NCBI GenBank assembly: GCA_018000455.1 | Contig: JAGNJW010000007.1 | Coordinates: 1 to 64,000 of the forward strand | DNA: 64,000 bases | Reading direction: 5' to 3' | Source of the DNA: Acidobacteriota bacterium | GTDB lineage: Bacteria > Acidobacteriota > Vicinamibacteria > Vicinamibacterales > UBA2999 | In this document: positions 1,588 through 59,476 of the stretch, in pieces | Layout: each line of letters begins with the position of its first letter | How positions within the stretch are numbered: position 1 is the first letter of the stretch | Position numbers and translations under genes: made by a program | The notes under the pieces: model-generated | The model's database searches: none | What the model was told of the DNA's origin: nothing | What the model saw: the letters and a program-made list of their open reading frames with translations, nothing else

Positions 1588-1620
1588 GAACACGCAGGCG
1601 AATCGCGTCCCGAGGACTGC

Positions 1621-1941
1621 ATGGCGTCTGAACCCGTTGTCGTCGTCATCACCTACCGCGCGCAGCCCGGACACGGTCCGCGGGCGCTCAGCGAATTGCA
1701 GGCCCTGGTGCGCGAGGTGGTCGCGCGCGAGCCCGACTGCGGCGGCATCCGCATCCATCGCGACCCCGACGACGATACTCGGGTGTTGCTGTACGAGGAG
1801 TGGTCGTCGCGCGAGGCCTACCAGGGACCGCACATGCAGACCGCGCATCTCGGTGTCTTCATGACAAGCGCCCGTGAGTTCCTCGCCGGTCCGCCGACCA
1901 TCGAGTTGTGGCAACTCGAAGGAGATCACACCCGGAGCTAG
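1621..1941 (+). CDS. antibiotic biosynthesis monooxygenase (ABM) domain protein
   Basis: A 106-residue single-domain protein with the ferredoxin-like ABM fold pattern: an N-terminal strand (VVVVITYRAQPGH), a helix (ALSELQALVREVVAREPDCG), then RVLLYEEWSSREAYQGPHMQ and a helix carrying the HMQTAHLGVF segment. The Y-EEW--REAY---H--T-H pattern is typical of YgiN-like quinol monooxygenases and their relatives. Such proteins act as cofactor-independent oxygenases on small aromatic or quinone substrates; the substrate here is unknown. It stands alone, 48 bp after DUF2442 and 45 bp before the DinB pseudogene. Confidence 0.8.
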   Translation: MASEPVVVVITYRAQPGHGPRALSELQALVREVVAREPDCGGIRIHRDPDDDTRVLLYEEWSSREAYQGPHMQTAHLGVFMTSAREFLAGPPTIELWQLEGDHTRS

Positions 1942-1986
1942 TTGGCCCGGCACACGAGATCGATCAGATCAGACAGGAGCACTGCC

Positions 1987-2379
1987 ATGGCGAACGAACC
2001 GTTGATCGCTGAACTTGAGCAGTAAGCTGCCACGACGCGGCGTCTACTCGAGCGGGTGCCGGTGGCTGGGCTGGCGACCCCATCCCAAGTCGATGTCTCG
2101 CTGGGTCAGCTGGCCCTGCATGTCGCCGCGATTCCCGGCGATCTGAGCCGTCTCGCAGAGATGGACGGTCTCGACACGGCGACAGTGAACTTCGAGCCGC
2201 CCACGGCGCAGGACGCCGACGAGCTGCTGTCGAGTCTGGACCGAAGCGTGAGCGCGTCCAAGGAGTTCCTCGGACACCTCACGCCGTCACAAGCTGAAGC
2301 GCCCTGGCGCCTGACGATGCGCGGACAGGATGTCTGCACCGTGTACGGGCGGAGTGCCGACGACGACCCATTCGTGTAG
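1987..2379 (+). pseudogene. DinB-family protein, broken (in-frame stop plus internal deletion)
   Basis: From the ATG at 1987 the frame reads MANEPLIAELEQ and then a TAA (2023-2025). Past the stop the same frame continues as a recognisable DinB-type protein: AATTRRLLERVP, SLGQLALHVAAIPG, LSRLAEMDGLDT, NFEPPTA and a helix ending SKEFLGHL. Near the end the sequence jumps from APWRLTMRGQDVCTV straight to YGRSADDDPFV. The roughly 40 residues normally between them, including the metal-binding H-x-x-HH region, are missing. So there are two independent lesions: a nonsense codon and an in-frame internal deletion. Intact members are near 165-170 residues. DinB-fold proteins are often thiol-dependent transferases; this copy should be inactive. 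Confidence 0.75.
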
Positions 2380-2397
2380 CGGGGCGCCCTGTGCCTC

Positions 2398-2521
2398 GTG
2401 GCCGTCGCGAGAGACGACCTCACACACTGGACGACAGCGAAGCCTCCAGGCGGCGGGGGGCGGGGCCGTCCGGAACAGGCCACGCGGGGTTGAGTCGTCG
2501 AATGACGAGGCGGCCCGTCGG
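2398..2521. repeat. 125-bp imperfect dispersed repeat, copy B
   Basis: Second copy of the repeat at 631-756, in the same orientation. It begins 19 bp after the stop of the DinB pseudogene. Confidence 0.7.
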
Positions 2522-2660
2522 GCGCCGCGGGTTGGGAGCCGTCCGTTAACGAGGCCAGACACGAACACGTTCCAAGGGGACACGGCGCCGCCGTAGCGCG
2601 CGCCGTCTTTCACGAGTCGATCGCAGCCGTGGGCCGGTCCTCACCAAGGAGCCATGAATC

Positions 2661-3491
2661 GTGAAGCCGGGGCGCATGAGCCAGACCGCACTCGAGGTGG
2701 GAGCGTCGCTGGTCGCCTTGAGCGCGAAAGATGACTGGGCGCAACGACTGCCTCCTGGCCTGGTGGCCGCCACCGAGCGCCTTCTGCTGGCCTCGGGAGC
2801 GCCCGGTTATGGCCCTCGTCTGATTCGTCTATCCAAACGGCCGTGGATGATCCGCGTCTACGAATTGCAGGACCTCATGATGCCAGGGCAGTTCGAGGCT
2901 CTTGGCCACCGCAAGATCTTCGTGCAGCAGAAGGTCGAGGCGGCACTCGCGCACAGCGCGGGGCAAGTGCTAGTGATCGGGGCTGGCTTCGACACCCTCT
3001 GCCTGCGACTCGCGCCGCAATACAGCGCCGTGCAGTCCTTCGAGGTCGACCATCCCGCGACGTCCGCTGCCAAGGCGCGAGGCATCGCCCTCGAGGATGC
3101 ACCGGCGAACCTGATCCAGATCGCGGCGGATCTGGGAGAGCGACCGCTCTCGATGGTATTGTCCGAGGACGGCCGCTGGCAGACCTCGCTGCCCTCGGTG
3201 CTCGTCGCCGAGGGCCTCTTCCAATACCTGTCGGATGAGCAGGTGCGAGGGCTGTTCCGCGAGACCGCTAGATGCACACCACCTGGAAGCCAGTTTGTGT
3301 TCACACATGCGATTCCTGGGACTGGACGGATCCTGTCGATCCTGACGCGCCTCATCGCCGAGCCGTGGAAATCAGCCGTTCGCAGTGAGGACCTGCCGGA
3401 ATACGTCACAGGGACCGGCTGGGCGATCACTTCAGACGTCGACACCGACAGCGCCCACGGGGTCGAACGCTATGCGGTAGCTCGTCGGTGA
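2661..3491 (+). CDS. class I SAM-dependent methyltransferase (leucine carboxyl methyltransferase-like family)
   Basis: A 276-residue methyltransferase of the PPM1/LCMT-like family (TIGR00027-type). The GTG start is preferred over the ATG at 2676 because family members begin with a K-G-P/M-S-TA motif, seen here as MKPGRMSQTAL. The SAM-binding motif I is QVLVIGAGFDTLCLRL (about residues 99-114), followed by the acidic motif II region SFEVDHPATSAAK. Later come VLVAEGLFQYLSDEQVRGLF and FVFTHAIPG. These enzymes methylate carboxyl or hydroxyl groups on proteins or small molecules; the substrate cannot be read from the sequence. No operon partner is visible. Confidence 0.8.
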   Translation: MKPGRMSQTALEVGASLVALSAKDDWAQRLPPGLVAATERLLLASGAPGYGPRLIRLSKRPWMIRVYELQDLMMPGQFEALGHRKIFVQQKVEAALAHSAGQVLVIGAGFDTLCLRLAPQYSAVQSFEVDHPATSAAKARGIALEDAPANLIQIAADLGERPLSMVLSEDGRWQTSLPSVLVAEGLFQYLSDEQVRGLFRETARCTPPGSQFVFTHAIPGTGRILSILTRLIAEPWKSAVRSEDLPEYVTGTGWAITSDVDTDSAHGVERYAVARR

Positions 3492-3516
3492 TGCGGAATA
3501 TCAGCCGCTCAGCGCG

Positions 3517-5619
3517 TCAGCAGATCAGCTGATCGACTGGCACCGGACGGCCGAACAGGTAGCCCTGCATCACCGGGCAGCCGAGCTCGAGCAGCTTGTC
3601 CTTCTGCGCCGTGCGCTCGACGCCTTCGGCTACGACGTCCATCGAGAGGCTGCGTGCCACGCCGATGATCGCGGTGACGATGGCAGCATCGCGCGGGTCG
3701 GTCGTGATGTTCCTGATGAACGAGCGGTCGATCTTGAGCGCGTCGAGCGGCAGCGCCTTGAGATACGTCAGCGACGAGTAGCCGGTGCCGAAGTCGTCGA
3801 GGATGAGCGAGAAGCCGGCCTCCTTGAGCGCGCGCAGCGTCGGCACCGAGCGAGCGTGGTCGGCCAGCACGCTCTCGGTGATCTCGAGTGACACCGCGCT
3901 CGGGCTGAGGCGAGAGGCGGTCACGGCTTCGAGCAAGGTGTCGACGACGTCTGGCCGCTTGAACTGCTGGGCCGAGATGTTGACGGCCACGTTGACGCCG
4001 CGCGCATGCCAGCCGCGGGCCATCGATTCGCTGCTCGACTTGTGCAGGATCCAGCGGCCCAGTTCGTGGATCGAGCCGCTCTCTTCGGCCACGTGGATGA
4101 ACTGCGCCGGCGCGATGAGCCCCGCCTCGGGACGGTTCCACCGCATCAGCGCCTCGACCGCCACCACGCGGTTGGTGCGGCCGTCGACCTGCGGCTGGAA
4201 GTAGGCCACGAGCTCGTCGTTCTGCACGGCCCGCCGCAGATGCCCCTCGAGCAGCAGCCGCTGCAGCGCCGCATCGTTCAGCGCGCTGCTGAAGAACTGA
4301 AAGCAATCGCGGCCCGAGTCCTTGGCGTGATAGAGCGCCGCATCGGCCGTCTTGAACAGCTCCTCGACACTCTGGCCGTCCTGCGGGAAGACGCTGATGC
4401 CCATGCTGGTCGTGACGAACACTTCACCGTAGGGCGCCAGCGTGATGGGCTGCTTCAGCGCATTCTGCAGACGCCGCGCAATGCGCGGCACGTCCTCCAC
4501 TCGCTCCAGGTCGCCGATGGCGAGGATGAATTCGTCGCCGCCGAGTCTGGCGACGGTGTGGGTCTCGCCGTCGCCGTGACGATCGCGTGTGAAGAGATCG
4601 CTGTCGCGCGTCGTGTCGCGGAAGCGATCGGCCACCACCTTGAGCAGCTCATCGCCGGCCGTATGGCCCATCGTGTCGTTGACGCTCTTGAAGTTGTCGA
4701 GATCCACGAATACGGTGGCTACGAGCTGGCCGCGCCGCCGTGCCGTAGCGATCATGCCGCGCAGGCGTTCGGTGAAGAGCACGCGGTTGGGCAGGTGGGT
4801 CAGGCTGTCGTAGTAGGCCAGGAACTTGATGCGCTTCTCGGCCGCCGTGCGCTCGGTGATGTCTTGCAGCGTGCCCATCACGCGGGTGGCCCGCCCGTGC
4901 TCGTCGTGGACCGCCTCGCCCTGGGCGTGGAGCACGCGTGTCTGGCCGCCCTTCTGCACGAACTGAAGATCGATGGCGAAGGCTGGCAAGCCGCCCAGCA
5001 CCTGGTCGAGCGCCACCCGCACGGCCGCCTGATCAACCGTGTGCACACGATCGAGGAACCGCGCCATCGGCGCCGTGCGGATGGAATCGGGAACACCGAG
5101 CAGGCGATGGACCTCGGCCGACCACACGACGCGGTCTTCCTGCGGATCCCAGATCCAGTTGCCGAGCCGGGCGATGCGCTGGGCCTGCGCCAGGCTCGAC
5201 TCGCTGTTGCGCAGGTCGTGCAGCGTCCGCGTCACGCGCAGCATCTGCTGCACCCGGTGGCACAGGAGCGGCGTTGGCGCCGACCTGGTCGCGAAGTCGG
5301 ACGCCCCTGCTTCCTGCCCCTGGTGCACGGCGGCCGCGTCGTGCTCGGGAATCAGCAGCAGCACCGGCACATCGGCCATCCACGGCTGCGCGCGCAGCTC
5401 GAGAATCGCCTGCAGCGCCGAGCGGTCGCCGTCGAGCTCGGGGTCGAGCACGACCACGTGGGGCGCCGGGTCGGAGCACGCCGCGCACACGTCGGCGCAG
5501 GTGGTGGTCGTGGTCACCGTGAAGCCTGCGGACGAGAACGCGTCGGCCAGATGGGTACGGAGGTCCGGGGCCGCGGCCAGCAACAGGTGCGGCGGCGACT
5601 CCGTGCGCGGATCGGTCAC
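3517..5619 (-). CDS. REC-PAS-GGDEF-EAL bifunctional cyclic di-GMP protein
   Basis: A 700-residue cytoplasmic signalling protein starting at a GTG. Domains in order: receiver-like (about 10-130), PAS (about 145-260), GGDEF (about 265-435), EAL (about 445-695). The receiver keeps a candidate phosphoacceptor Asp59. However, the N-terminal acidic pair is replaced (LLLAAAPDL) and the conserved Lys-Pro is replaced by TRSAP, so phosphorylation may not work normally. The cyclase motif GGDEF is intact (360-364). A possible RxxD product-inhibition site (347-350) is displaced by a short insert. The phosphodiesterase keeps E489-A-L, N547, E579, DDFGTGYSSL (608-617), K629 and the E665 loop, so it should be active. 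It could make or degrade c-di-GMP depending on the PAS signal. No transmembrane segment is seen. Confidence 0.9.
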   Translation of the reverse strand: MTDPRTESPPHLLLAAAPDLRTHLADAFSSAGFTVTTTTTCADVCAACSDPAPHVVVLDPELDGDRSALQAILELRAQPWMADVPVLLLIPEHDAAAVHQGQEAGASDFATRSAPTPLLCHRVQQMLRVTRTLHDLRNSESSLAQAQRIARLGNWIWDPQEDRVVWSAEVHRLLGVPDSIRTAPMARFLDRVHTVDQAAVRVALDQVLGGLPAFAIDLQFVQKGGQTRVLHAQGEAVHDEHGRATRVMGTLQDITERTAAEKRIKFLAYYDSLTHLPNRVLFTERLRGMIATARRRGQLVATVFVDLDNFKSVNDTMGHTAGDELLKVVADRFRDTTRDSDLFTRDRHGDGETHTVARLGGDEFILAIGDLERVEDVPRIARRLQNALKQPITLAPYGEVFVTTSMGISVFPQDGQSVEELFKTADAALYHAKDSGRDCFQFFSSALNDAALQRLLLEGHLRRAVQNDELVAYFQPQVDGRTNRVVAVEALMRWNRPEAGLIAPAQFIHVAEESGSIHELGRWILHKSSSESMARGWHARGVNVAVNISAQQFKRPDVVDTLLEAVTASRLSPSAVSLEITESVLADHARSVPTLRALKEAGFSLILDDFGTGYSSLTYLKALPLDALKIDRSFIRNITTDPRDAAIVTAIIGVARSLSMDVVAEGVERTAQKDKLLELGCPVMQGYLFGRPVPVDQLIC

Positions 5620-5743
5620 TGGTTGTAACTATCGGTGCAAAGCAGCCCGGCAATTAGGCTGGAACGCGCCGGTATGTGCGAAATCAGGCCGGGAACGGCA
5701 CCTGCGGCCCCCGGGCGCTTAGTGCATGCGCGGGCAGACCCGA

Positions 5744-6388
5744 TCAGCGCGACACGACGGCGTCCGCTGCATCGAGCACGGCCAGGAACTCGGCCAGCAC
5801 CATCGCCGTGGCGCCCCAGACCCTGGCGCCCTCCACGTCGAAGTACGGCACGTCCATCAACTCCGACGGCCCACGCTCGCGCATTCGCTGCTCCCAGCGC
5901 ACGGCCTCCGGCGCCCGCAGATGCGACAGTGGCACCTCAATCAGGCGCTCCACTTCGGCCTCCGCGATAACGAACATGGGCCGCTCGGTGGCGATGCCAA
6001 CCACCGGATGCAGCAGGTGGTTGCTCACCGGGATGTGGAGCGGCGACAGCCGCCCGAGGATCTCGACCGCGCCGGGCGCAAGACCGATTTCCTCGAAGGC
6101 CTCGCGCAAGGCCGCCTGCTCGAACGATTCGCCGGCATCCACGCGCCCGCCAGGCAACGAGACCTGCCCGGTGTGATGGCGCAGCGCCGAGGCCCTGAGC
6201 GTGAGCGGCACCTGCCACACGCCGGCATGGGGATACACGAGCAGAAGGCCGGCGGCAAGCCGCAAGCCCGGCGGCACCGCGGGCGGGTCCCAGCCCGGCC
6301 GCGGCTGGGGCGCCATCGTCAGTTGCGCCTCGAGCCCGGGCAGAGTCGACGCGAGCCGCGTGCGCAGCGCCGTGGCGAAGGAACGCAT
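5744..6388 (-). CDS. Nudix hydrolase, CoA-pyrophosphatase-like
   Basis: A 214-residue protein with a full Nudix box from G81 to L103 (GRVDAGESF, then REAFEEIGL), preceded by GQVSLPGG. That HTGQVSLPGGR context and the C-terminal PYFDVEGARVWGATAMVLAEFL segment are typical of NudL/YeaB-type CoA diphosphohydrolases, which cleave CoA or acyl-CoA to phosphopantetheine and 3',5'-ADP. The start MRSFATAL is chosen because it leaves an 88-bp divergent gap to the amidohydrolase gene; longer N-terminal codons do not look like the family. The exact substrate is inferred from family features, not proven. Confidence 0.85.
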   Translation of the reverse strand: MRSFATALRTRLASTLPGLEAQLTMAPQPRPGWDPPAVPPGLRLAAGLLLVYPHAGVWQVPLTLRASALRHHTGQVSLPGGRVDAGESFEQAALREAFEEIGLAPGAVEILGRLSPLHIPVSNHLLHPVVGIATERPMFVIAEAEVERLIEVPLSHLRAPEAVRWEQRMRERGPSELMDVPYFDVEGARVWGATAMVLAEFLAVLDAADAVVSR

Positions 6389-6476
6389 CCTCGCGATCGT
6401 AGTGGGTTGACAGGCGACGCGGCAACCGGCGAGAGTTCGGTAGCGTCGTCGGGCCGCCGGCCCCGCGACCGGGAGG

Positions 6477-8216
6477 ATGTGTGTGACGCAGCCCAGAACG
6501 TGGCAGGTGTTGGGAGTGGCCGCAGCGCTGGTGACAGGTGCCGCCTGCGCGAGCGAACCGGCCGTCGAGCCGGCGACGATGGTCGTCAGAAACGGCAAGA
6601 TCGTCACGATGGAGGCGGCCGCGCCCGAGGTGCAGGCCCTGGCCGTGCGCGGCGACCGCATCGTGGCCACCGGCACCACCGCCGAGATCGAGAAATACGT
6701 CGGTCAGGCTACCGAGATCATCGACCTGGCGGGCTTGACCGCGGTGCCCGGCCTCATCGAGGGCCACGGCCACTTCATGGGCCTCGGCGGCTCGCGGATG
6801 GTCATCGACCTGATGGACGTCACGAGCTGGGATGAGATCGTCCGGCTCGTGGGCGAGGCGGCCGCCGTGGCGCAGCCCGGCGAGTGGATCCGCGGGCGCG
6901 GCTGGCATCAGGAGAAGTGGACGTCGGTGCCGCAGCCCAACGTCGAGGGCTTCCCCATCCACGATGCCCTCAGCAAGGTCTCGCCGAACAACCCGGTCAT
7001 GCTCGAACACGCCAGCGGCCACGCCACCTACGTGAACGCGAAGGCCATGGAAGAGGCGGGCATCACGGCCCGAACGACGAGCCCGGCCGGCGGCGACATC
7101 CTGAAAGACCGGGCCGGACGGCCGATCGGCGTACTGCGGGAAACCGCATCGCGTCTGGTCGGCGCGGCACTGTCGGCATGGGTCGACAAGAAGACGCCCG
7201 CGGAACGTGCGGCCGATGCCCGCAGGGTCATTGACGAGGCCGTGCAGGCCTCGCTCGAAAAAGGCATCACCTCGTTCCAGGATGCCGGCGAGAGCTTCTC
7301 CACCATCGACGTCATCAAGCAGGCTGCCGACGACGGCGCGCTGGGCATCCGCCTGTGGGTGATGGTGCGCGACAGCAACGAGAACATCGCGGCCAAGATG
7401 GCCCAATACAAAGCGGTGGGCCTGGCGAGCAACCACCTGACGATTGCCGCCATCAAGAAGACCATCGACGGCGCCATCGGCTCGCGCGGCGCCTGGCTGC
7501 TCGAGCCCTACAGTGACATGCCGACGAGCACCGGCCTGAACACGGCCCCGGTCGAGGAGGTGCGGGCGCTGGCGGCTCTGGCTGCCGCCAACGGGGTGCA
7601 GCTCGGCGTCCACGCCATCGGCGATCGCGCCAACCGCGAGTCGCTCGACATCTTCGAGGCCACCTTCAAGGCGAACCCCTCGGTGACCGACTGGCGCTGG
7701 CGGATCGAGCATGCGCAGCACCTGAGCGCGGCCGACATCCCGCGCTTCGGCCAGCTCGGCGTCATTGCCTCGATGCAGGGCATCCACGCGACCTCCGACG
7801 GGCCCTACGTGCGAGCGCGCCTCGGCGAGGCGCGGGTGGCCGAAGGCGGCTACGTGTGGCAGAAGCTGATGAAGAGCGGCGCCATCGTCTCGAACGGCAC
7901 CGACGTGCCGGTCGAGCGCATCGACCCGATGCCGAACTTCCACGCCACCATCACCCGCAAGCTCAAGGACGGCTCGCTCTTCTACCCCGACCAACGCATG
8001 AGCCGCGAGGAAGCGCTGAAGTCGTACACCTGGAACGCGGCCTACGCGGCCAAGGAAGAGATGCTCAAGGGCTCGCTGGCGGTGGGCAAGCTGGCCGACA
8101 TCACCGTGCTGACGAAAGACATCATGACGGTGCCGGAAGACGAGATCCCGGCCACCGACGTCGTCTATACAATCGTCGGCGGCAAGGTGATGTACCGCGG
8201 GGCCGCGGCGAAGTAG
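6477..8216 (+). CDS. exported YtcJ-like metal-dependent amidohydrolase
   Basis: A 579-residue amidohydrolase-3 family protein. The N-terminus has a hydrophobic signal (VLGVAAALVTGAACAS); a Cys at 24 could be lipidated, but the lipobox is weak. The metal-binding HxH is H97-G-H99 in PGLIEGHGHF. Later conserved pieces are GVHAIGDRANRESLDIF, WRIEHAQHLSAADIPRF and NGTDVPVERIDPM, which supply the remaining metal and catalytic residues. The family hydrolyses N-acyl or cyclic amide bonds; the substrate is unknown. It is divergent from the Nudix gene and convergent with mscL, with a large inverted repeat right after its stop. A GGGAGG ribosome site lies just upstream of the ATG. Confidence 0.88.
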   Translation: MCVTQPRTWQVLGVAAALVTGAACASEPAVEPATMVVRNGKIVTMEAAAPEVQALAVRGDRIVATGTTAEIEKYVGQATEIIDLAGLTAVPGLIEGHGHFMGLGGSRMVIDLMDVTSWDEIVRLVGEAAAVAQPGEWIRGRGWHQEKWTSVPQPNVEGFPIHDALSKVSPNNPVMLEHASGHATYVNAKAMEEAGITARTTSPAGGDILKDRAGRPIGVLRETASRLVGAALSAWVDKKTPAERAADARRVIDEAVQASLEKGITSFQDAGESFSTIDVIKQAADDGALGIRLWVMVRDSNENIAAKMAQYKAVGLASNHLTIAAIKKTIDGAIGSRGAWLLEPYSDMPTSTGLNTAPVEEVRALAALAAANGVQLGVHAIGDRANRESLDIFEATFKANPSVTDWRWRIEHAQHLSAADIPRFGQLGVIASMQGIHATSDGPYVRARLGEARVAEGGYVWQKLMKSGAIVSNGTDVPVERIDPMPNFHATITRKLKDGSLFYPDQRMSREEALKSYTWNAAYAAKEEMLKGSLAVGKLADITVLTKDIMTVPEDEIPATDVVYTIVGGKVMYRGAAAK

Positions 8217-47773: not shown

Positions 47774-49536
47774 TCAGCTCGGCGTGCGGTCCATCTGCTC
47801 GAGGGCCGTGACACCGCTGCGCATGCCGAGCAGCCAGATGGCGATGCTCATGGCCACCGCGGTGCCGAACGACAGCGCCATCATCCACTGCTGCCAGCCG
47901 GTCAAGGCCCGCTGGCGCGTCTGGGCGAAGAGGTAGACCGATGACGGCCAGCCGGTGAGCGCGATCATCGCCAGCACGTAGAGCACCGCGAGCACCATGA
48001 AGGCGACGCCGCCGTAGGAGCCCGCCACCTGCGACGGGTTGTCGGCGGCAAAGCGCGGATAGCGGGCGCCGAGGCCCGCCGCGAGCCCGACCAGCGCGAA
48101 CGCCATCAGGAACACTGACGCCGCCGCCACCTGCTTCAGAAACGGGTCGCTGCCGAGGAACTCGTTGCCGGCGATGGTCAGGCACTCGGTGAGCACCACT
48201 ACCGGAATGAGCCCGGTCCAGAACTTGGACCACAGAAAGGCGCGCATCGAGATCGGCGCGCTGCGGATGATCCAGAAGGCGGCCCCTTCGGCCGACACCG
48301 CCGGGAACACGAAGCGAACGGTCACCGTCGCCATGACGAACCCGGCCATGCCCAGGTTGAGAAAGGCGTAGGCGTTCTTGATGACACCACTCATGTACGG
48401 GATGCGGTCGAGGTCGAGCACGCGGAAGTTGTAGAGGTAGACCAGCACCAGCGCCACGAGCAGCAGGAGCTGCGACCACTGGCTGACGTCGCGCAGGAAC
48501 ACCTTGAGATCCTTCACGAGGAGCTGACGCGTGACCGGTGCCAGGGGCAGCAGGCCGACGCTGCGATCGACGACGCGCCATTCGGCAAAGCGGGCCTTTC
48601 GTGCCTCCTGCGACTTGCTGTAGCCGGCGAAATGCCAGCGCTCGAAGGCCGCCGCCAGGCCGATGACGATGGCGGAGGCGGTGGTCCAGAGTGCGGCCAC
48701 GTGCAGCCAGTCGCTGCCGCCCTGCAGGCTCGCGAAGATGGCTTCCCCGGCCCAGAACGACGGCAGCAGCGGCGTGACCGGCGACTGCAGCGTGGCGAAG
48801 AAGTCGGTCACGACCGGCATCGATTCCACCCGTAGCAGGCGCTCGGGCTGAATGACGCGCAGCAGGATGACCAGGCTGGTCGCGAAGACGAGCCCCATCA
48901 ACATCAGGATGTCGCGCGCCCGCCGCGCCGGGAAGACGTTGACGAGCAAGAGGGTCACCGCCGTGCCAAGGCCCACCGGAATGACGACGAACGGCGCGAT
49001 GGTCAGCGTGGCGACGGCCACGAACGACCACGGCGCGCACTTGGCGATGCCCACGCCGGCCAGCACGGGCACGAGAAACACCACGATCATCCATCCCGCC
49101 TGCGACATCGTGCGGGCGAAGCGGGCGAAGAACACCCGCCGGGCAGACACCGGCGAGGCGAACACCAGGCGCAGATCGTCGGAGAGGAAGAAGGTCGAGA
49201 GCGCCGACACCACGCCGCTGAAGGCGAGGAACGACAGGAACGTGAGGAACAGCCACGACAGCCCGATGCGGATCAGGTAGTCGCCGAGCTCGGCGTATTG
49301 CGCCGCCTGGTAGGTGACCCAGAAGGCGCCGGCGACCAGCGCGGCCACGACGGTGAGGCCGATGGCGCCGAAGACGAGCCCGCGCAGCAGGTCGCCACGC
49401 TCGCGCCGCCGGGCCCGGTTGCGCGACGCCCACCAGCCGGGAAGGAGCTGGAAGGTGAACGGCCGGGTCAGGGCGCCCGCGTGGCCGGCGGAGGCCTCCG
49501 GCCCGGGGAATCGCGCGCGCAGGACCTCGGTCGTCA

Positions 49537-49537
<1 letters not shown>
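47774..49537 (-). CDS. ABC transporter permease (ABC-2-type, large)
   Basis: A 587-residue membrane protein with about 12 hydrophobic segments in two halves, for example LRGLVFGAIGLTVVAALVAG and WMIVVFLVPVLAGVGIAKCA. A cytoplasmic loop (about 320-350) carries RKARFAEWRVVDRSVGLLPL. It resembles putative ABC exporters with a fused double permease. The ATG at 49537 overlaps the ATPase stop by 1 nt (TGATG), so it is the third gene of the transglutaminase-ATPase-permease operon. The substrate is unknown. Confidence 0.82.
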
Positions 49538-50285
<748 letters not shown>

Positions 50286-50289
<4 letters not shown>

Positions 50290-51938
50290 GAGCCCCCCCG
50301 GCACGGCAGCGCCCAGCAGCCGCAGGTTTGGCGTGTGGGCAGCGCAAATGACAGCGGCCTGGCATCTGCGGCATCGGCCAGCGGGCGTCCGACGATGACG
50401 GGCGAGGTGTTGGGCGCCATCTCGGCCTCGAGCACGGTCAGCTTGAGATGGCCGATGAGCGGCAGGATGGCCGGCTGCTTGTCGAGCCCGCCCTGCAGGA
50501 GCCGCAGGTGCGTCGTATCCGCCGGGAACTGGTTGAAGGTCGGATCGACCGGCAGCCAGTAGCCACGCGACGGGCCGACATCGATCCACACCTCGGGCCA
50601 GGCGTGATAGTAGAAGGCGCCGCGCACCATCGCCAGGCCGACGTTGATTCTGGCCGGCAGGCCGGCGGCCCGGGCCAGGGCCACGTAGAGTGCCGTGTGC
50701 TCGTTGCAGTCGCCGACCTTCGTGCGCAGCACTTCCTTCGCTGACGGCAGGCTGACCGTCGGCTTCTTGTCGAGCATGGCGTTCACTTCGCGCACCAGGC
50801 GCTCGGCCTTGGTGCGCGGATCGGTGGCGCCGCCGACGATCCGCCGTGCCTGCTCGACGATCTCGGGATCGTCGCTCTCGATGAACGTCTCGGGGCCGAG
50901 GAACCGGCTGCGATCGGGATCGGCCGGGCCGGCCACGAGCGTGCGCGGATCGGTGACGTCGAGCACATTGCCCGTCATGCGCTGCGTCGCGCCAGCGAAA
51001 TCGAAGCCGGCCAGGTCCACGTCGTTGAACTCGACCTTCAGCCTCACGACGTCGGTCGGCTCGGTGACCGGCACACGCAGCGTGGGCACGATCGCCGCCG
51101 CCTGCAGCATGTCGGATCTGACGCGCGCCGAGACGGCCAGCTGCTGGGCCTGCTCGGGCGTCTCACGCACCGACATCAGGCCGAGCGGGCTCTCCTCGCG
51201 CACGATGGCGCCGGTGTCGGTGATCCACGCCGTGGTCGTGAGGCCCGCATAGCCGAGGTCGACCTTGAACGCCGGAATCGGGCGGCCGCTCGTGAGCACG
51301 ATCTCGCGGGCGTGAACGCGCACGGCCACGGGCGCATTGCTGAGCGTGGCCGGATCGAACACCATGAGCTGGTGCGTGGCGCCGGCAACGAGACCCGCGC
51401 TCGCCAGACGGCGCGCCATGGTGAGCATCAGCGCCGGCGGTTCCTCGAGGGTGCGCGTCTCGGTGCGAACGCTGCCCGCGGAGCGGATCTCGACAACGAG
51501 CGTGAGGCCGTCGACGACGCCCGAGAGCGTCAGCGGGCCGGTGCCCGGATCGAGTGAGAAGTCGAACGACTGGAGCTGGAAGGCCTGATCGACGCGGGCC
51601 GTCGTGCGGATGGCCGCCGGCGTGGTCGCGCCGAGCAGCGACATCTGGAGGCGGCCGTCTTCCTGCAGTTCGAAGCCCCCCTCGACGGGCACGAGCTGCC
51701 CGACCGTGAAGCCAACCTTTTCGCCCCGATAGTAGACGCCGCGCCATTCGGCCTCGGTGCCGTAGCGCGCCAGGTCGGTGGCGAGATTCGCGGGCGACGC
51801 CTGGAGGTAGGCGCGGTGCAGGAGCACGCCCATGCACGCCACCCAGGCGGCCAGGGCCAGACACGACAGCGGCCGTGTGACCCGGCGGGGCAAGGCGCGG
51901 TGCAGTGGGAGGCGTGGCACAACGGGCTCGGACACCAT
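50286..51938 (-). CDS. membrane-anchored transglutaminase-like protein
   Basis: A 550-residue protein with an N-terminal membrane anchor (LSCLALAAWVACMGVLLHRA). The middle part is strand-rich (YGTEAEWRGVYYRGEKVGFT, LTLSGVVDGLTLVVEIRS). The C-terminal transglutaminase domain has the triad Cys in VGDCNEHTALYVALARAAGL, His in YYHAWPEVWIDV and Asp in WLPVDPTFNQF. Such enzymes may act as proteases or cross-linkers of periplasmic proteins. It is the first gene of the operon with the ABC ATPase and permease, so it may process the exported substrate. Start and stop overlaps mark one transcript. Confidence 0.85.
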
Positions 51939-52026: not shown

Positions 52027-52671
52027 ATGGTGCCGCCGCCGATTCCACAGCAGGACGCGTTTGCCCGCGATCGGCGGGCCCGCGCCATTGTTGTGATCCA
52101 ACGACGTTTGCCCTTTCCGCGCCGGCGCCGCCCCCTCCCTGGGGCGGAGGCGAAGCCGTGCGTTCGCCCGCCGGTGCGCCGCGGCGTGTCGCGCCCGCGC
52201 CGCACGGCCGGCGAGACGCGGCTGGCGTCCACGCCCAAGTCCACGACGCCAGCGCTCGTCCCCGACGCCAGCGAATCCGCGATTGTGGTGGCGACCGCCG
52301 ATCCGTCCCTGCTGCGCATGCTCACCTTCGCACTCGACCAGATGCGCCTGCCCCACCGCGCCTTCACCTCCGGCACGCGGGTGCTCAAGTCACTGCTCGA
52401 CATGCCTGCTTGCGGCCGCCCCACGGTGGTCGTGCTCGACGTGGATCTGCCGGGCGTGGACGGCCACGCGATCCTCGAGCGACTCGGCGTCGCGCGTCCC
52501 GACGCCTTCCTCATCGTGGTGCTGTCGTCGCACGCCGACGAATCGGTGCAGGTGCGCTCGCTGCTCGCCGGAGCGCTCGACCACCTGGCCAAGCCCTTCA
52601 ACATCCGTGTGCTGATGGCGAAGCTGCAGCGCTGGACGACCATCGCACGCCGCTCTGGGGCGGCCGCCTGA
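52027..52671 (+). CDS. response regulator with basic N-terminal extension
   Basis: Up to 214 residues from the ATG at 52027; the in-frame GTG at 52093 gives 192. Residues about 1-85 are basic and proline-rich with no known domain and may partly be non-coding. Residues about 88-205 are a receiver: ATADPSLLRMLTFALDQM, the phosphoacceptor Asp in TVVVLDVDLPGVDG, the switch Ser in VVLSSHADES and the conserved Lys in LAKPFNIR. No output domain follows, so it may act through protein binding. Its TGA overlaps the ATG of the HEAT-repeat gene (TGATG), so it is coupled to a glycan synthesis operon it may control. Confidence 0.82.
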   Translation: MVPPPIPQQDAFARDRRARAIVVIQRRLPFPRRRRPLPGAEAKPCVRPPVRRGVSRPRRTAGETRLASTPKSTTPALVPDASESAIVVATADPSLLRMLTFALDQMRLPHRAFTSGTRVLKSLLDMPACGRPTVVVLDVDLPGVDGHAILERLGVARPDAFLIVVLSSHADESVQVRSLLAGALDHLAKPFNIRVLMAKLQRWTTIARRSGAAA

Positions 52672-53738
52672 TGCTCTCGATCGATGTCATCGCGGTGGCG
52701 CTGGCCGTGGAAGGCACGCTCATCGCAGCGGCGCTCGGCGGCCTCGTCGTCCTGCGGATCTACCTCGTGTGGCGCGCCCGGCAGGTGGAGTCGGGGGTGA
52801 GCCGCCTCGAGCCACTGCTGCACGCGTGGCTGGTCGAGAATGCCGACGTCTCGGCGATCGTCCACTTCCTGCGCGCGCAGCCGCCCCACGTCGCCTTCCG
52901 CAGCGTGGCGCGCCTGGCCACCGCCTACGTCACCTTCGAACGTCAGCAGATTCTGGCACCGCTCCTGCGCGACGAGCCGTGGGTCCGCAACGTGTTGCGG
53001 CGTGGCCGCTCCGTCTTCTGGTGGCGCCGCTTCGACGCCGCGCGCCTGCTCTCGATTGTCGGCGGCTCGGCCGACGTCACGCTCGTCGCCTCGCTGCTCT
53101 CGGATCGCAGTCCCGCCGTGCGGCTGGTGGCCATCGACGCGGCGGCGCGCCTGGGCGGCCGGCTCGTCGACCTCGAGCTCGACAGCCTGCCCGGCCGGCA
53201 GGACGCCGTGCAGCAGTACCAGTTCGCCGCTCTCAACCGCCACCCGGCCATCGTCGCGGCGGCGCTCGTGCCGCGGCTGCGCCCCGAGGTGCCCACGGTG
53301 ATGCTGAATGCCTGGATCGACGCCGCCGGCGCCTCGGCCAATCCCGTCGCGCTCCGCCAGGTGCGCAGCCTGGCGCTGCACGAGGCGCCGGAGGTCCGGC
53401 TGCACGTGGCGCGCGCGCTGCGCCGTCTCGCCGAGCCCGAAACGGCGCCGGTGCTGCTGTCGCTGCTGGCCGACGAAGACTGGCGCGTGCGGGCGCAAGC
53501 GGCCCGTGCGCTCGGCGCCCTGCGCGTGACGTCGGCAGCCCGGCCGCTGGCCGCCGCGGTGCGCGACCGGGCGTGGTGGGTCCGCTACCGCGCCGCGCTG
53601 GCGCTGGCGCAGATCGGCGGCGAGGCGCGCGAGCTGCTGCTCGAGGTCAGCCGTGGCAGCGACCCGCTGGCGCGCGATATGTCGGCACTGGTCGCCGGCC
53701 TGTCCTCGGCGGCGGTCGTCGAGATGTCGGAGGTCTAG
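52671..53738 (+). CDS. membrane-anchored HEAT-repeat protein
   Basis: A 355-residue protein. One N-terminal membrane helix (VEGTLIAAALGGLVVLRIYL) is followed by a cytoplasmic helical solenoid. Recognisable HEAT/PBS-type repeats include ADVTLVASLLSDRSPAVRLV, VALRQVRSLALHEAPEVRLH, ETAPVLLSLLADEDWRVRAQ and AARPLAAAVRDRAWWVRYRA. HEAT solenoids are scaffolds for protein partners. Its start overlaps the response regulator and the glycosyltransferase starts 3 bp after its stop, so it may link the regulator to the synthase. I know of no characterised operon of exactly this composition. Confidence 0.85.
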   Translation: MLSIDVIAVALAVEGTLIAAALGGLVVLRIYLVWRARQVESGVSRLEPLLHAWLVENADVSAIVHFLRAQPPHVAFRSVARLATAYVTFERQQILAPLLRDEPWVRNVLRRGRSVFWWRRFDAARLLSIVGGSADVTLVASLLSDRSPAVRLVAIDAAARLGGRLVDLELDSLPGRQDAVQQYQFAALNRHPAIVAAALVPRLRPEVPTVMLNAWIDAAGASANPVALRQVRSLALHEAPEVRLHVARALRRLAEPETAPVLLSLLADEDWRVRAQAARALGALRVTSAARPLAAAVRDRAWWVRYRAALALAQIGGEARELLLEVSRGSDPLARDMSALVAGLSSAAVVEMSEV

Positions 53739-53741
53739 GGC

Positions 53742-55229
53742 GTGGCCGCATCCGCCATGTCCTGGTTCGTGAATCTGGTCACGATGGCCGACGTCGCCAT
53801 CCTGTGGTACATGCTCGCCGTCAACTCGTTCTTCGCGCTGCTCCTGGTGCTGGCGGCACCGCAGCTCTTCTCACACTGGCGCTTCGGCAGCGAAGACGTG
53901 CTCGCGCGCAGCCTGACGTCGTCGGCCGTGCCGCGCGTCAGCATCCTGGTGCCGGCGCACAACGAGGCCGTGACGATCGTCGACAGCCTGCGGGCGCTGC
54001 TCACGCTGCAGTATCCGTACTTCGAAGTGATCCTCGTGAACGACGGCTCGACCGACGACACGATGGAGCAGCTCATCGCCGCCTACGATCTCTACGAGGT
54101 GCCGCCGGCGGTGATGCGCCGCCTGCACACCGAGCGTGTCAAGGGCTACTACCGCTCGAAGACGTGGACCAAACTGCTCGTGGTCAACAAGCTGAACGGC
54201 GGCAAGGCCGATTCGCTCAACGTTGGCCTCGATGCGGCGCGCTTCCCCTTCGTGCTGGCGTGCGACGCCGATACGCTCATCGAGCCCGACGCGCTGCTGC
54301 GCCTGGCACGGCCCTTTCTCTTCGACCAGAAGATCGCCGCCGTCGGCGGCACGATTCGCGTGGTGAATTCGTGCCAGGTCGAAGAAGGCCGCGTCGTCGA
54401 TGCACGGGTCGACGGCCGCTGGCTCGCGGGCATCCAGACGGTCGAGTACCTGCGCGCGTTCCTGTTCGGGCGGCTCGGCTGGAACCTGCTCGGCGGCAAC
54501 CTGATCATCTCCGGGGCGTTCGGTTTGTTCCGTCGCGACTACCTCACCGAGATCCTCGGTTACGAGACGGGCACGGTGACCGAAGACTTCGAGCTCATCG
54601 TGCGCCTCCAGCGTTACCTCAAGGAACAGGGCGCCGTCGCCAAGGTGGTGTTCATTCCTGACCCGGTGGCGTGGACGGAGGTGCCGACGTCGATCGCCGT
54701 GCTGGGCCGCCAGCGCGAACGCTGGCACCGCGGTCTCATCGCGACGATGGTGGCGCACCGCCGGGTCATCTTCAACCCGCGCTACGGAGCGACGGGTCTC
54801 ATCGCGATGCCCTACTTCCTCTTCGCCGAGCTGCTGGCGCCCATCGTCGAAGCCGTCGGACTCGTCATCACCGTGCTGTGCACCCTGGCCGGCGTGCTGG
54901 CACCGCGATTCGCGTTCTACTTCTTCGTCGCCGCGTATCTGTACGGCACGCTCCTGTCGCTGGCGGCCATCCTGATGGAGGAGGTCAGTTTCCACAGGTA
55001 TCGCCGTCCGGCCGACACGCTGCGGCTCGTCTTCTTCGCCTTCGTCGAACCGTTCGGCTACCGCCAGATCACGGTCTGGTTCCGTCTCAAGGCGTTCGTC
55101 CGCTACTTCCAGGGGGACCATTCCTGGGGCCGGATGAAGCGCGAAGGGTTCGGTGGGGCGGTAGCGGACGCACCCCCCGCGGCGCCGGTGACGCCGGTGC
55201 CCGAGGTGCGGCTGCCACCGGCGGCCTGA
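53742..55229 (+). CDS. membrane glycosyltransferase family 2 (PgaC/cellulose-synthase-like)
   Basis: A 495-residue processive-type GT2 enzyme. The GTG at 53742 has a GGAGG site; an ATG at 53757 is an alternative. One N-terminal helix (WYMLAVNSFFALLLVLAAPQ) precedes the catalytic domain: VSILVPAHNEAVTIVDSLRA, VILVNDGSTDDTM, the DxD in LACDADTLIEPD, TEDFELIVRLQRY and the QRxRW motif as RQRERWHRG. Four C-terminal helices (about 350-440) form the export channel. Such enzymes polymerise and secrete beta-linked glycans such as poly-N-acetylglucosamine or cellulose. The polymer is unknown. No c-di-GMP-binding PilZ domain is visible. Confidence 0.9.
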   Translation: MAASAMSWFVNLVTMADVAILWYMLAVNSFFALLLVLAAPQLFSHWRFGSEDVLARSLTSSAVPRVSILVPAHNEAVTIVDSLRALLTLQYPYFEVILVNDGSTDDTMEQLIAAYDLYEVPPAVMRRLHTERVKGYYRSKTWTKLLVVNKLNGGKADSLNVGLDAARFPFVLACDADTLIEPDALLRLARPFLFDQKIAAVGGTIRVVNSCQVEEGRVVDARVDGRWLAGIQTVEYLRAFLFGRLGWNLLGGNLIISGAFGLFRRDYLTEILGYETGTVTEDFELIVRLQRYLKEQGAVAKVVFIPDPVAWTEVPTSIAVLGRQRERWHRGLIATMVAHRRVIFNPRYGATGLIAMPYFLFAELLAPIVEAVGLVITVLCTLAGVLAPRFAFYFFVAAYLYGTLLSLAAILMEEVSFHRYRRPADTLRLVFFAFVEPFGYRQITVWFRLKAFVRYFQGDHSWGRMKREGFGGAVADAPPAAPVTPVPEVRLPPAA

Positions 55230-55846: not shown

Positions 55847-57030
55847 GCCCACGCCTCCTCCTTGTAGACCACCTGGCCGTCGGCCTTCACCACCCAGCCA
55901 GTGATCGGGTTCAGGTGGTAGCCCGTGGTGCCGGGTCCGCGCAGCGCGAGCAATTTTGCCCGCGTCGGCTGCACGTAGCCGGTCTCGTCCACCGCGCGGC
56001 TCATGATGACGGCCTCGCCGCCCGTCCATTCGAAGAGATGGCGGAAGCGGGTGTGGGCCATCGGCAGCACCGGTTCCTGCAGCTGCGCGGCCACCCAGGT
56101 CGTTCCGCCATTGGTGCTGACGTCGACGCGCCGGATCCTGCCGGCCCCGGTCCAGGCGATGCCCTTGATCTCCACCCACCCGCGCTCCAGCGTGTTGGGA
56201 TACGCGGGGTAGGTGATGAGCGAGCGCGCGTCCATGCGGAAGCTGAACATCCGCGAGGTGCCGTTGGCGAAGGGCTCGGTGTACTTCGAGGTCTCTTCGC
56301 GGGTCATGAACGGCGAGTCCGACACCTCGATGCGCCGCAGCCATTTCACGCTGGCGTTGCCTTCCCAGCCGGGCAGGAAGAGCCGTGCCGGATAGCCCTG
56401 CTCGGGACGCAGCGCCTCGCCGTTCTGACCGTAAGCAACGAGCGCGTCGAGCTGCGCCTTCTCGATGGGCACGCTGCGCGTGAGCACGGCGGCGTCGTTG
56501 CCCTCGGCCAGCAGCCACGTGGCGCCGGGTCGCACGCCGACCTCCCGCAGCAACGTCGCCAGGCGCACGCCCGTCCACTCGCTCGTGCTCGTGAGCCCTG
56601 CCAGCTGTCCGGGCGTGGTTTCGGGTCCCGCGGTGCGCCCGAGATTGCCGGAGCATTCCAGGAAGCAGATCTGCGAGTGCGACGGGAAACGCTTCAGATC
56701 GGCGAGCGTGAAGATCGTCGGGCGCTCGACCATCCCGTGAATGAGCAGCGAGTAGGTGGCCGGATCGATCTCGGGCACGCCGCCGTGATGCCGCTCGAAA
56801 TGCAGGTCGGACGGCGTGATGATGCCCATGAGGTCCTGGTGCGGCGTGCTCGACGCCGCCTGGCCGCGCACGATGCGCTCGGCGCGCTCGCCGGCGGCCC
56901 GCCGGCCAACGGCCCGGGGCGGCCTGCCCCGCACCTTGCTCGGGTCGACCGGAGCCTGCGCCTGGGCTGTCGTTCCCAGAGCCACCGCGCCGGCCGCACC
57001 GGCCAGCAAGTCTCGTCGCGTCACCTTCAT
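55843..57030 (-). CDS. soxC: SoxC-like sulfite dehydrogenase, molybdopterin subunit
   Basis: A 395-residue Tat-exported protein (TRRDLLAGAAGAVALGTTAQ). The molybdenum ligand is C126 in ICFLECSGNLGR. LLAEGNDAAVLTRSVPIEKA and NGEALRPEQGYPARLFLPGW are conserved SoxC segments, and the C-terminal dimer domain contains RIRRVDVSTNGGTTWVAA. It should oxidise sulfite or a sulfur-bound intermediate in the periplasm with SoxD as acceptor. A TATACT box on the minus strand (57071-57066) would give a leader of about 30 nt. The two genes overlap by 4 nt. Confidence 0.9.
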   Translation of the reverse strand: MKVTRRDLLAGAAGAVALGTTAQAQAPVDPSKVRGRPPRAVGRRAAGERAERIVRGQAASSTPHQDLMGIITPSDLHFERHHGGVPEIDPATYSLLIHGMVERPTIFTLADLKRFPSHSQICFLECSGNLGRTAGPETTPGQLAGLTSTSEWTGVRLATLLREVGVRPGATWLLAEGNDAAVLTRSVPIEKAQLDALVAYGQNGEALRPEQGYPARLFLPGWEGNASVKWLRRIEVSDSPFMTREETSKYTEPFANGTSRMFSFRMDARSLITYPAYPNTLERGWVEIKGIAWTGAGRIRRVDVSTNGGTTWVAAQLQEPVLPMAHTRFRHLFEWTGGEAVIMSRAVDETGYVQPTRAKLLALRGPGTTGYHLNPITGWVVKADGQVVYKEEAWA

Positions 57031-57065
57031 CTCGGACCTCGTCGGCACCAGGGCCGCTCGGCGCG

Positions 57066-57071
57066 AGTATA
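57066..57071 (-). promoter_or_regulatory. TATACT -10 box upstream of soxC
   Basis: TATACT on the minus strand lies about 35 nt before the soxC ATG at 57030, a normal leadered promoter. Confidence 0.45.
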
Positions 57072-57241
57072 GCGGGTCGGCTTGCCCTCGCTCGCGGCCA
57101 GGTCTCCGGTCCGGTCGCGAAGGCCGGTGCGGCTGGACGAGGGTCCGTTGGCGGAGCGCAGCGTCAGGAGCGCACAGACGGCCCTCGAGGCCGCTGCAAG
57201 AAAACACCGGGCCGTCGTTCTCTCCCAGGAGGACGACGCCG

Positions 57242-59476
57242 ATGCCGCTCATGAGACCAGCCTGGACGTGGCTGACCGCCGACCCGCGCCACGGGCAAGT
57301 CGCCACGCTGGCCGCACTGCTCGCTTACGGGCTGGTGTGGCTCGACTTCGACGTCAGCGCCGCGCAAATCGCCGTGACAATCGGGACGGCGATCGCCGCG
57401 CAGCGCGCCGGCGACTGGTGGCGCGGCGCACCGTGGGCGTCGGGCCTGAAGAGCGCCCTCATCTCGTCGCTGTCGTTGTGCCTGCTGCTGCGCACCGACG
57501 ACCTGGGCTGGGCAGCGGCCGGCGCGGCGATGGCCGTCGCCTCGAAGTTCCTCCTCCGCGTCAACGGCAAGCACGTCTTCAACCCCACCAACGGGGCGCT
57601 CATCGCGCTGGTGCTCGTGACCGACGCAGCGTGGGTCTCACCCGGCCAGTGGGGCACGGGCGCCACCTTCGTCTTCGCCATCGCCGCAGCGGGCCTTGCC
57701 GTGGTGCATCGCTCCACGCGCAGCGACGTCACGCTCGCCTTCATCGCCAGCTACGCCACGCTCGTCGTGGCGCGGTCGCTGTGGCTCGGCGAGCCACTGA
57801 CCATTCCGCTGCATCGGCTCGAGAGCGGTGCCTTCCTGCTCTTTGCCTTCTTCATGATCTCCGACCCCAAGACGACGCCCGATTCGCGCGCCGGCCGCGT
57901 GCTGCTGGCGACGCTCGTGGCGCTTGGGGCGGCCTACGTGCACTTCCGGCTGTTTCGCCCGAACGGCTTTCTGTGGGCGCTCGTTCTGGCCGCGCCGCTC
58001 GTGCCGCTCCTCGACCGTCTGCTCCCGGCCCGGCGCTACGAATGGCCGCGTCTGCTCTCACCCCTGCCCCGCTTCGACTGGAGGATTCCGATGACGCGCA
58101 AGACCGCCGTGTTCGTGTTCGCCGCACTGGCCGCTCTGGGCCACGCCACTCCGGCCGCCGCCTTCTGCGGTTTCTACGTCGCCAAGGCCGACACCACGAT
58201 CTTCAACAAGGCCTCGCAGGTCGTGCTGGTGCGCGACGGCGACCGAACGGTCATCACGATGGCCAACGACTTCCGCGGTGATCCGCGCGAGTTCGCGATG
58301 GTGATTCCCGTGCCCACCAGCATCACGCGCGAGCAGATCCACGTGGCCGACGCGGCACTCGTCTCGCACCTGGATGCCTACACGGCGCCACGTCTGGTCG
58401 AGTACTTCGACGCCGACCCCTGCGCGCGCTACGACCGCATGAGGGCGCTGGAGGCGCCGATGCCGTCGGCGATGTCGGTGGCGGGGTTGTCGCGCGATGA
58501 GCGCCGGGCGAAGAATCTCGGCGTCACCATCGAGGCGCGCTACACGGTGGGCGAGTACGACATCCTGATCCTGTCGGCCGAGCAGAGCACGGGACTCGAA
58601 ACGTGGCTGCGCGAGAGCGGCTACAGGATTCCCGCCGGCGCCTCGCGTGTGCTCGGCAGCTACATCCGCCAGCAGATGCGCTTTTTCGTCGCCAAGGTGA
58701 ACCTCGCCGAGCAGTCGAAGCTCGGGTTCTCGACACTCAGGCCGATCCAGGTGGCCTACGAGTCGCCCAAGTTCATGCTGCCGATCCGGCTCGGCATGGT
58801 GAACGCCGATGGCGCCCAGGAGCTGTTCGTCTACGCGCTCACCAGGAAGGGCCGGGTCGAGAGCACCAACTACCGCACCGTGAAGCTCACGACCGACGTC
58901 GAGATTCCCACTTACGTGAAAGACCCGGCCGAGTTCGCCAAGATGTACAAGGCGATGTTCGACCAGCACGTTGGCCGCGAGGACATGCGCGCGGTGTTCC
59001 AGGAGTACGCGTGGGACATGGCCTGGTGCGATCCGTGCGCGGCCGATCCGCTGTCGCGCGATGAACTGCGCAGCCTCGGCGTCTTCTGGCTCGACGGCGG
59101 GAGCGACATCGTCAGGCCGGCGATCGGGCGGCCGGTGGCCGCGCCCGAGAACGTCTTCGTGACGCGCCTGCACGTCCGCTACGACCAGGCCCACTTCCCC
59201 GAAGACCTGGTGTTCCACGAAACGGGCGACCGCACGAACTTCCAGGGCCGCTACGTGCTGCGTCATGCCTGGTCGGGACCGGCCACCTGCGAGGCCGGCG
59301 AGGCCTACCGCCGCACCGTCCGCGACCGTCAGGCCCGCGAGGCCGAGACGCTGGCCACGCTCACCGGCTGGCACCTCGAGGACATCCGGCGGAGGCAGGG
59401 CGAGGGGCCTGTCGCCCCACCACGCGGACCGGAGAACGATGCCCCCGTATCCTGGTGGCGCAAGCTGTGGAAGTAG
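57242..59476 (+). CDS. RnfD/NqrB-like membrane protein fused in frame to DUF2330 protein
   Basis: A single open frame of 744 codons from the ATG at 57242 (AGGAGG ribosome site). Codons 1-283 encode a membrane protein with about eight helices and the RnfD/NqrB-type region GKHVFNPTNGALIALVLVTD and LFAFFMISDPKTTPDSRAG. RnfD and NqrB are membrane flavin-carrying subunits of ion-pumping electron-transport complexes; single-gene relatives of unknown role are common. From codon 284 (58091) a DUF2330 protein follows, without a stop between. An internal ATG with its own GGAGG site and a signal peptide suggest the two are normally separate proteins. The rest of an Rnf complex is absent. Confidence 0.8.
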   Translation: MPLMRPAWTWLTADPRHGQVATLAALLAYGLVWLDFDVSAAQIAVTIGTAIAAQRAGDWWRGAPWASGLKSALISSLSLCLLLRTDDLGWAAAGAAMAVASKFLLRVNGKHVFNPTNGALIALVLVTDAAWVSPGQWGTGATFVFAIAAAGLAVVHRSTRSDVTLAFIASYATLVVARSLWLGEPLTIPLHRLESGAFLLFAFFMISDPKTTPDSRAGRVLLATLVALGAAYVHFRLFRPNGFLWALVLAAPLVPLLDRLLPARRYEWPRLLSPLPRFDWRIPMTRKTAVFVFAALAALGHATPAAAFCGFYVAKADTTIFNKASQVVLVRDGDRTVITMANDFRGDPREFAMVIPVPTSITREQIHVADAALVSHLDAYTAPRLVEYFDADPCARYDRMRALEAPMPSAMSVAGLSRDERRAKNLGVTIEARYTVGEYDILILSAEQSTGLETWLRESGYRIPAGASRVLGSYIRQQMRFFVAKVNLAEQSKLGFSTLRPIQVAYESPKFMLPIRLGMVNADGAQELFVYALTRKGRVESTNYRTVKLTTDVEIPTYVKDPAEFAKMYKAMFDQHVGREDMRAVFQEYAWDMAWCDPCAADPLSRDELRSLGVFWLDGGSDIVRPAIGRPVAAPENVFVTRLHVRYDQAHFPEDLVFHETGDRTNFQGRYVLRHAWSGPATCEAGEAYRRTVRDRQAREAETLATLTGWHLEDIRRRQGEGPVAPPRGPENDAPVSWWRKLWK
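58091..59476 (+). CDS. DUF2330 exported protein (internal start within the fused frame)
   Basis: 461 residues if translated from the ATG at 58091, which has a TGGAGG site 7 nt upstream. The signal peptide (AVFVFAALAALGHATPAAAF) leads to the DUF2330 opening CGFYVAKADTTIFNKASQVV and VITMANDFRGDPREFAMVIP. Other hallmarks are LSAEQSTGLETWLRESGYRI and FFVAKVNLAEQSKLGFSTLR. Four or more cysteines (CARYD, CDPCAADP, ATCEAGE) suggest disulfides. DUF2330 proteins are periplasmic or membrane-tethered, of unknown function. It is the same frame as the RnfD-like part. Confidence 0.82.
   Translation: MTRKTAVFVFAALAALGHATPAAAFCGFYVAKADTTIFNKASQVVLVRDGDRTVITMANDFRGDPREFAMVIPVPTSITREQIHVADAALVSHLDAYTAPRLVEYFDADPCARYDRMRALEAPMPSAMSVAGLSRDERRAKNLGVTIEARYTVGEYDILILSAEQSTGLETWLRESGYRIPAGASRVLGSYIRQQMRFFVAKVNLAEQSKLGFSTLRPIQVAYESPKFMLPIRLGMVNADGAQELFVYALTRKGRVESTNYRTVKLTTDVEIPTYVKDPAEFAKMYKAMFDQHVGREDMRAVFQEYAWDMAWCDPCAADPLSRDELRSLGVFWLDGGSDIVRPAIGRPVAAPENVFVTRLHVRYDQAHFPEDLVFHETGDRTNFQGRYVLRHAWSGPATCEAGEAYRRTVRDRQAREAETLATLTGWHLEDIRRRQGEGPVAPPRGPENDAPVSWWRKLWK

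Follow-up and report, generated by a model that had tools for sequence, protein, structure and literature searches.

How might a receiver protein control a glycan synthase when a HEAT-repeat protein is encoded between them? Genes for three such proteins lie together in DNA of 64,000 nucleotides from an Acidobacteriota bacterium (GenBank assembly GCA_018000455.1, contig JAGNJW010000007.1, positions 1 to 64,000; the window, meaning this whole stretch). The first-pass annotation of the window proposed a phosphorelay-controlled glycan exporter in which the HEAT protein links regulator and synthase. We favor, with moderate confidence, a synthase-dependent polysaccharide exporter in which the HEAT solenoid would be the adaptor between receiver and synthase; both the interaction and the product are inferred.

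Table 1. Features of the three-gene unit (window positions).
Feature	Position	Strand	Evidence and details
Receiver-domain protein (REC)	52027..52671	+	PF00072, 54.1 bits, aa 87-200; ATG start as listed
REC domain	52285..52626	+	Thr90-Ala91, 52294-52299; Asp138, 52438-52440; Ser167; Lys189, 52591-52593
HEAT protein	52671..53738	+	PF13646 (HEAT_2), 66.6 bits; AF2 model; hydropathy
Membrane GT2 synthase, predicted processive type	53742..55229	+	Glyco_tranf_2_3, 83 bits; motifs NDGS, DAD, TED, QRERW

The three genes form one tight unit. Reading frames for REC, a HEAT protein with a transmembrane (TM) anchor, and a GT2 synthase (GT) were where the annotation had placed them. The final base of the REC stop codon (TGA, 52669-52671) is the first base of the HEAT start codon (ATG, 52671-52673), and the HEAT stop codon (TAG, 53736-53738) is followed by a gap of 3 bp and the GTG (53742) that starts the GT gene. 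Pfam scores for Response_reg, HEAT_2 and Glyco_tranf_2_3 in these proteins all exceeded the curated cut-offs. The REC start at ATG 52027 is uncertain: GTG 52093 is an alternative, the segment shared by aligned proteins of this REC type begins near V23, and the N-terminal extension shows loose constraint (dN/dS of 0.45). The neighboring ORFs that we scanned, encoding a transglutaminase-like protein and a cytochrome c, are both on the opposite strand, giving the trio the appearance of a stand-alone cassette. Farther out in the window, an ABC ATPase gene adjoins an ABC_tran_2 permease gene (47774-50589, minus strand) beside the transglutaminase-like ORF (50286-51938), and a single open frame (56816-59476, plus strand) combines an NQR2/RnfD-like membrane domain with a DUF2330 domain.

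The linkage of REC, HEAT and GT genes is real. We built a GT profile (A1) from 14 relatives, scanned 84,980 species, each represented by a single genome, and took 80 GT loci, the best 80 of 525 relatives (hereafter the best 80). A HEAT gene was immediately 5' of the GT gene in 77 of the 77 readable loci among the best 80: 73 were recognized by a first HMM, three by position (L125, L129 and L136, which a rebuilt HMM includes) and one as a fusion (L142); contig ends truncate L072, L096 and L140, which are outside this count. Pfam alone found HEAT_2 in 71 of 77 proteins, from 76 loci of the best 80 plus the window. Of the 74 loci of the best 80 that could be read for REC (L067, L072, L074, L082, L096 and L140 were cut), 67 had a REC gene on the same strand no more than 4 kb upstream, and by distance it was right before the HEAT gene in 50 of those 67. 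The seven loci with none upstream were L073 (REC on the opposite strand), L076 (REC downstream), L093, L114, L122, L123 and L145. The annotation had staked its reading on the genes being linked in other genomes, and they are. Loci of the best 80 carrying the set came from at least 13 named bacterial phyla, and three of the loci lack a phylum assignment.

The HEAT-GT pair was equally constant in other samples. In a clostridial family, 25 of 146 genomes had a match and HEAT was present in 26 of 26 loci (L149-L174). Among relatives of the window genome there were 21 GT matches, 18 of them readable (L032, L035 and L043 were cut), and all 18 had HEAT, 17 by HMM and L031 by a partial HEAT at a contig edge. 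Plasmids gave 16 matches; all eight that were read had HEAT, two of them from haloarchaea. Five of these eight had an upstream response regulator (Salinirubellus, Haloarcula, Mesorhizobium, Erythrobacter and Emticicia), and those of Deinococcus, Legionella and Bacteroides had HEAT-GT and no REC. The lack of REC at some loci suggests that this input is replaceable. The window genome (G000) itself has a second, diverged copy on contig C35 (30% identity for HEAT, 50% for GT), in which HEAT again precedes GT and a longer protein with a C-terminal REC precedes both. Across 63 loci, distance-matrix correlations were 0.81 for HEAT-GT, 0.71 for REC-GT and 0.63 for REC-HEAT, values that include the species phylogeny uncorrected.

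The HEAT-linked GTs are one clade, apart from PgaC-like GTs. The window GT has the D, DxD, TED and QxxRW motifs and flanking TM helices expected of processive GT2 enzymes, its AF2 model has a pLDDT of 89.2, and among solved structures Foldseek placed hyaluronan synthase and BcsA closest to it; we predict that it is a processive-type synthase. The description "PgaC-like" in the annotation held as a statement of similarity (TIGR03937 is the best NCBIfam match) and not as one of membership (127.1 bits versus a cut-off of 422.3). If the enzyme were an ordinary PgaC/IcaA-type PNAG synthase with neighbors gathered by chance, this top match would be explained, but the score is far below the cut-off and the comparisons that follow make such an identity very improbable. 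As controls, we took 44 TIGR03937-type matches from Acidobacteriota (loci L175-L204 and L214-L227). Twenty-two were left out, all among the 30 loci L175-L204, because the 1.5-kb flank is taken up by their own long ORFs (roughly 700 aa or more), which leaves the upstream gene out of view. HEAT was upstream in none of the 21 readable PgaC-like loci; the remaining control, L216, has both HEAT and REC and is a member of the HEAT clade (636 bits). HEAT-linked GTs scored at least 233 bits against the GT profile and other PgaC-like GTs at most 166, with 67 for E. coli PgaC and 33 for E. coli YaiP. In a quick tree (LG+G4, 132 rows) in which some long PgaC-like branches are unreliable, one branch with an SH-aLRT of 98 split 109 HEAT-linked GTs from 23 PgaC-like GTs.

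The genes around the synthase also differ from those of known systems. Like PgaABCD and IcaADBC, the trio combines a membrane GT2 that has the D,D,D,QxxRW set with a small operon partner (pgaD is annotated beside pgaC). Unlike them, it has HEAT in place of PgaD, YaiO (see below) in place of PgaA, and no adjacent deacetylase of the PgaB type; no pgaA, pgaB or pgaD was found in the ORFs scanned beside the trio, which were those for cytochrome c and transglutaminase. PilZ was missing, as the annotation had noted, from the Pfam matches of the trio and the scanned flanking ORFs. The synthase fold is shared with BcsA-BcsB; in contrast, Pfam found no PilZ domain in the trio GT, we noticed no BcsB, and the likely input would be REC instead of c-di-GMP. 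The E. coli yaiS-yaiP-yaiX-yaiO cluster likewise has a GT2 near a YaiO barrel gene, but no HEAT or receiver gene is annotated there.

The HEAT protein is probably a cytosolic solenoid on a membrane anchor. Its one N-terminal hydrophobic stretch (aa 4-22) is modelled within a helix (4-56), and the remainder is an all-helical solenoid (AF2 pLDDT of 96, pTM of 0.87). An N-terminal hydrophobic stretch was present in 72 of 76 HEAT proteins from the best 80, and in 62 of those 72 the C-terminal side of the TM segment was the more positively charged, a bias that probably places the solenoid in the cytosol. A natural HEAT-GT fusion (L142) has an additional hydrophobic segment between the two parts, an arrangement that would follow from HEAT lying inside and the GT N-terminus, as is probable, outside. 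Directly 5' of this fusion, an ORF (L142:5388-7481) joins a Clostridium metallo-beta-lactamase domain of the ODP family to GGDEF and REC. A second apparent fusion, L166, was rejected, as it consists of two in-frame ORFs separated by a stop. Foldseek matches to the solenoid were designed alphaReps, PP2A-A and importins, which gave no hint of function. CSI1 is a partner of plant cellulose synthase. The passages available on CSI1 describe a helical-repeat (armadillo) protein that serves a processive GT2; it connects to microtubules and not to a receiver domain, and we draw the likeness as analogy, claiming no common descent.

The receiver in the window has lost part of its phosphorylation site. 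We judged REC residues against CheY positions 12, 13, 57, 87 and 109. A fully competent-looking site was present in 57 of the 67 upstream RECs of the best 80, with 60 Asp, six Glu and one Asn at position 57. In the window REC, Thr90-Ala91 replaces both Mg2+-binding acidic residues, and the equivalent of the phospho-Asp (Asp138), Ser167 and Lys189 are retained. The same T-A-D-S-K set occurs in four counterparts (L021-L024), that is, in all five genomes readable for this type; the second copy and two counterparts (L025 and L061) have D-A-E-T-K, with Asp changed to Glu. The nearest outside relative, L066 from Gemmatimonadota, is intact (E-D-D-T-K), so loss of the acidic pair looks derived. We found no histidine kinase ORF beside the window trio among the flanking ORFs scanned; at 41 loci of the best 80 there is one in the flanks, on either strand. 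Given the altered sites of both copies and no kinase in the scanned flanks, the phosphorelay control that the annotation proposed is doubtful for the window copy. In 18 of the 67 REC-bearing loci of the best 80, REC terminates a longer ORF (>310 aa); examples of such proteins have HPt and GGDEF domains, and in L020 and L051 the GGDEF domain, read by eye, lacks its motif.

The altered receiver nevertheless appears to be kept. The dN/dS of REC was 0.15-0.20 in three comparisons, indicating purifying selection; in the comparison with G003 it was 0.196, versus 0.126 for HEAT and 0.104 for GT. These values bear on a different explanation, in which HEAT and GT are a constitutive synthase pair, with HEAT as an assembly or chain-guiding subunit, and the receiver acts elsewhere or in trans and is a decaying relic in this genome. 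The seven readable loci of the best 80 without an upstream REC, the lost acidic pair and the Asp-to-Glu change in the paralogue are what such a pair would predict. A relic, however, would not be expected to be under purifying selection and to keep its Asp, Ser and Lys, or REC to persist 5' of HEAT in most phyla of the best 80, and we consider the constitutive pair unlikely. Judging from its residues, we believe that the window receiver is probably a pseudo-receiver, either fixed or signalled by binding instead of phosphorylation.

There is a precedent for a receiver that acts on a glycan enzyme. In the available passages of a study of Myxococcus xanthus (PMC12802240), the single-domain response regulator EpsW acts directly, and post-translationally, on the polysaccharide enzyme EpsZ. 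By those passages, EpsZ differs from the trio GT in being a monotopic phosphoglycosyl transferase of a Wzx/Wzy pathway, EpsW requires phosphorylation, and a HEAT protein is not mentioned.

A YaiO barrel is a recurrent partner of the synthase. YaiO (PF19413, E < 1e-30) was in the flanks of 37 of the 54 loci of the best 80 that are outside Actinomycetota and Bacillota, versus none of the 26 inside; Pfam confirms 34 of the 37. Weak matches at L068, L105, L119, L126 and L132 were dropped before counting. Twenty of the 37 were upstream on the same strand and 10 were on the opposite strand. Among 59 relatives, 13 had both GT and YaiO, four GT only, one YaiO only and 41 neither (Fisher test, 7.6e-9, which ignores shared ancestry), and in genera g2, g11 and g16 YaiO was found only in the GT-bearing genome. 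In a sister genus (G007, L024), REC, HEAT, GT and YaiO are contiguous, with the YaiO ORF starting right after that of GT. The annotation was thus correct that outer-membrane genes are missing beside the trio, although not for the genome: its only YaiO is on another contig, C52 (L229, G000:C52:56500-70000; 1491-7240, minus strand), and the ORFs that follow it on the same strand are a TPR one and one for a membrane protein of the sulfatase family (848 aa). This operon is a candidate for the unlinked half of the trio system.

Sulfatase-fold enzymes are a second recurrent partner: at 14 of the best 80 loci, one lies near the GT or is fused to it. The C52 enzyme resembles these weakly, so that the same role for it is our inference. 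Such a partner also recalls BcsA-BcsB(-BcsG): the pEtN transferase of E. coli Bcs complexes presumably has the sulfatase fold. Titles of structures 9fmv and 9fmz place that transferase in the complexes. In Sphingobacterium and Weeksellaceae (L095, L112, L127, L129 and L135), GT and a C-terminal sulfatase-fold (LtaS/BcsG-like) membrane domain form one protein of about 1150 aa. In Bacillaceae, large proteins are encoded just 3' of the GT (L090:10293-13592, L092 and L121), with kin in Myxococcota and shorter kin at L071:10377-11540 and L086:10304-11401; the L090 protein has zero Pfam matches, and the family shares stretches around ADTYGVY and WSGW.

The sulfatase-fold transferases could instead indicate that the product is a glycolipid in the membrane or a short primer glycan, to be extended or phospho-decorated afterwards, and not an exported long polymer. 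Some GT2 membrane enzymes produce lipid-linked sugars. Against this, the D,D,D,QxxRW set is complete, the fold is nearest to hyaluronan and cellulose synthases, and the YaiO barrel is tied to the non-monoderm loci of the best 80; we regard a glycolipid product as quite unlikely.

Based on these results, the exporter that we favor would have as its core the GT2 synthase and an obligate, membrane-anchored cytosolic HEAT solenoid. HEAT would dock on the synthase at its cytosolic face as an adaptor or co-subunit, holding the place that PilZ, PgaD or BcsB-type partners have in other systems, and REC, the usual but replaceable input, would dock on HEAT and set synthase activity post-translationally. 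The chain would leave diderm cells through YaiO and may be decorated by the sulfatase-fold phospho-group transferase; in the window genome, both of these would be supplied from the unlinked operon. Adjacency and co-inheritance of HEAT, REC and GT fall short of proving binding, and HEAT as the link between regulator and synthase, as the annotation had it, is the most economical reading. More tentatively, the trio may represent a pan-prokaryotic synthase class in which HEAT replaces PilZ/c-di-GMP or a co-polymerase and relays receiver state, with the receivers of several lineages, that of the window included, phosphorylation-independent (Mg2+ site lost) or locked-on (Asp to Glu).

Post-translational control of synthase-dependent polysaccharides has mostly been told as a c-di-GMP story. 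We found no description of a REC-HEAT-GT trio in the open-licence literature, to which the search was confined, and provisionally consider the module undescribed; a HEAT match in PMC10434189 was, in the part available, an unrelated gene list. The gene set seems to be a broadly distributed machine, so far little studied, that makes and controls an exported polysaccharide. A single scan placed it in at least 13 named bacterial phyla, and it also occurs in haloarchaea and, as HEAT-GT lacking REC, in Deinococcus. Carriers include tractable hosts, among them Flavobacterium johnsoniae (L136), Mesorhizobium ciceri WSM1271 (L208) and Haloarcula (L213), so control by HEAT and the receiver is open to testing now. 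If our reading is true, many proteins labelled "HEAT repeat domain-containing", and many YaiO proteins, would gain a function, and there would be a second general logic that ties two-component signalling directly to matrix output.
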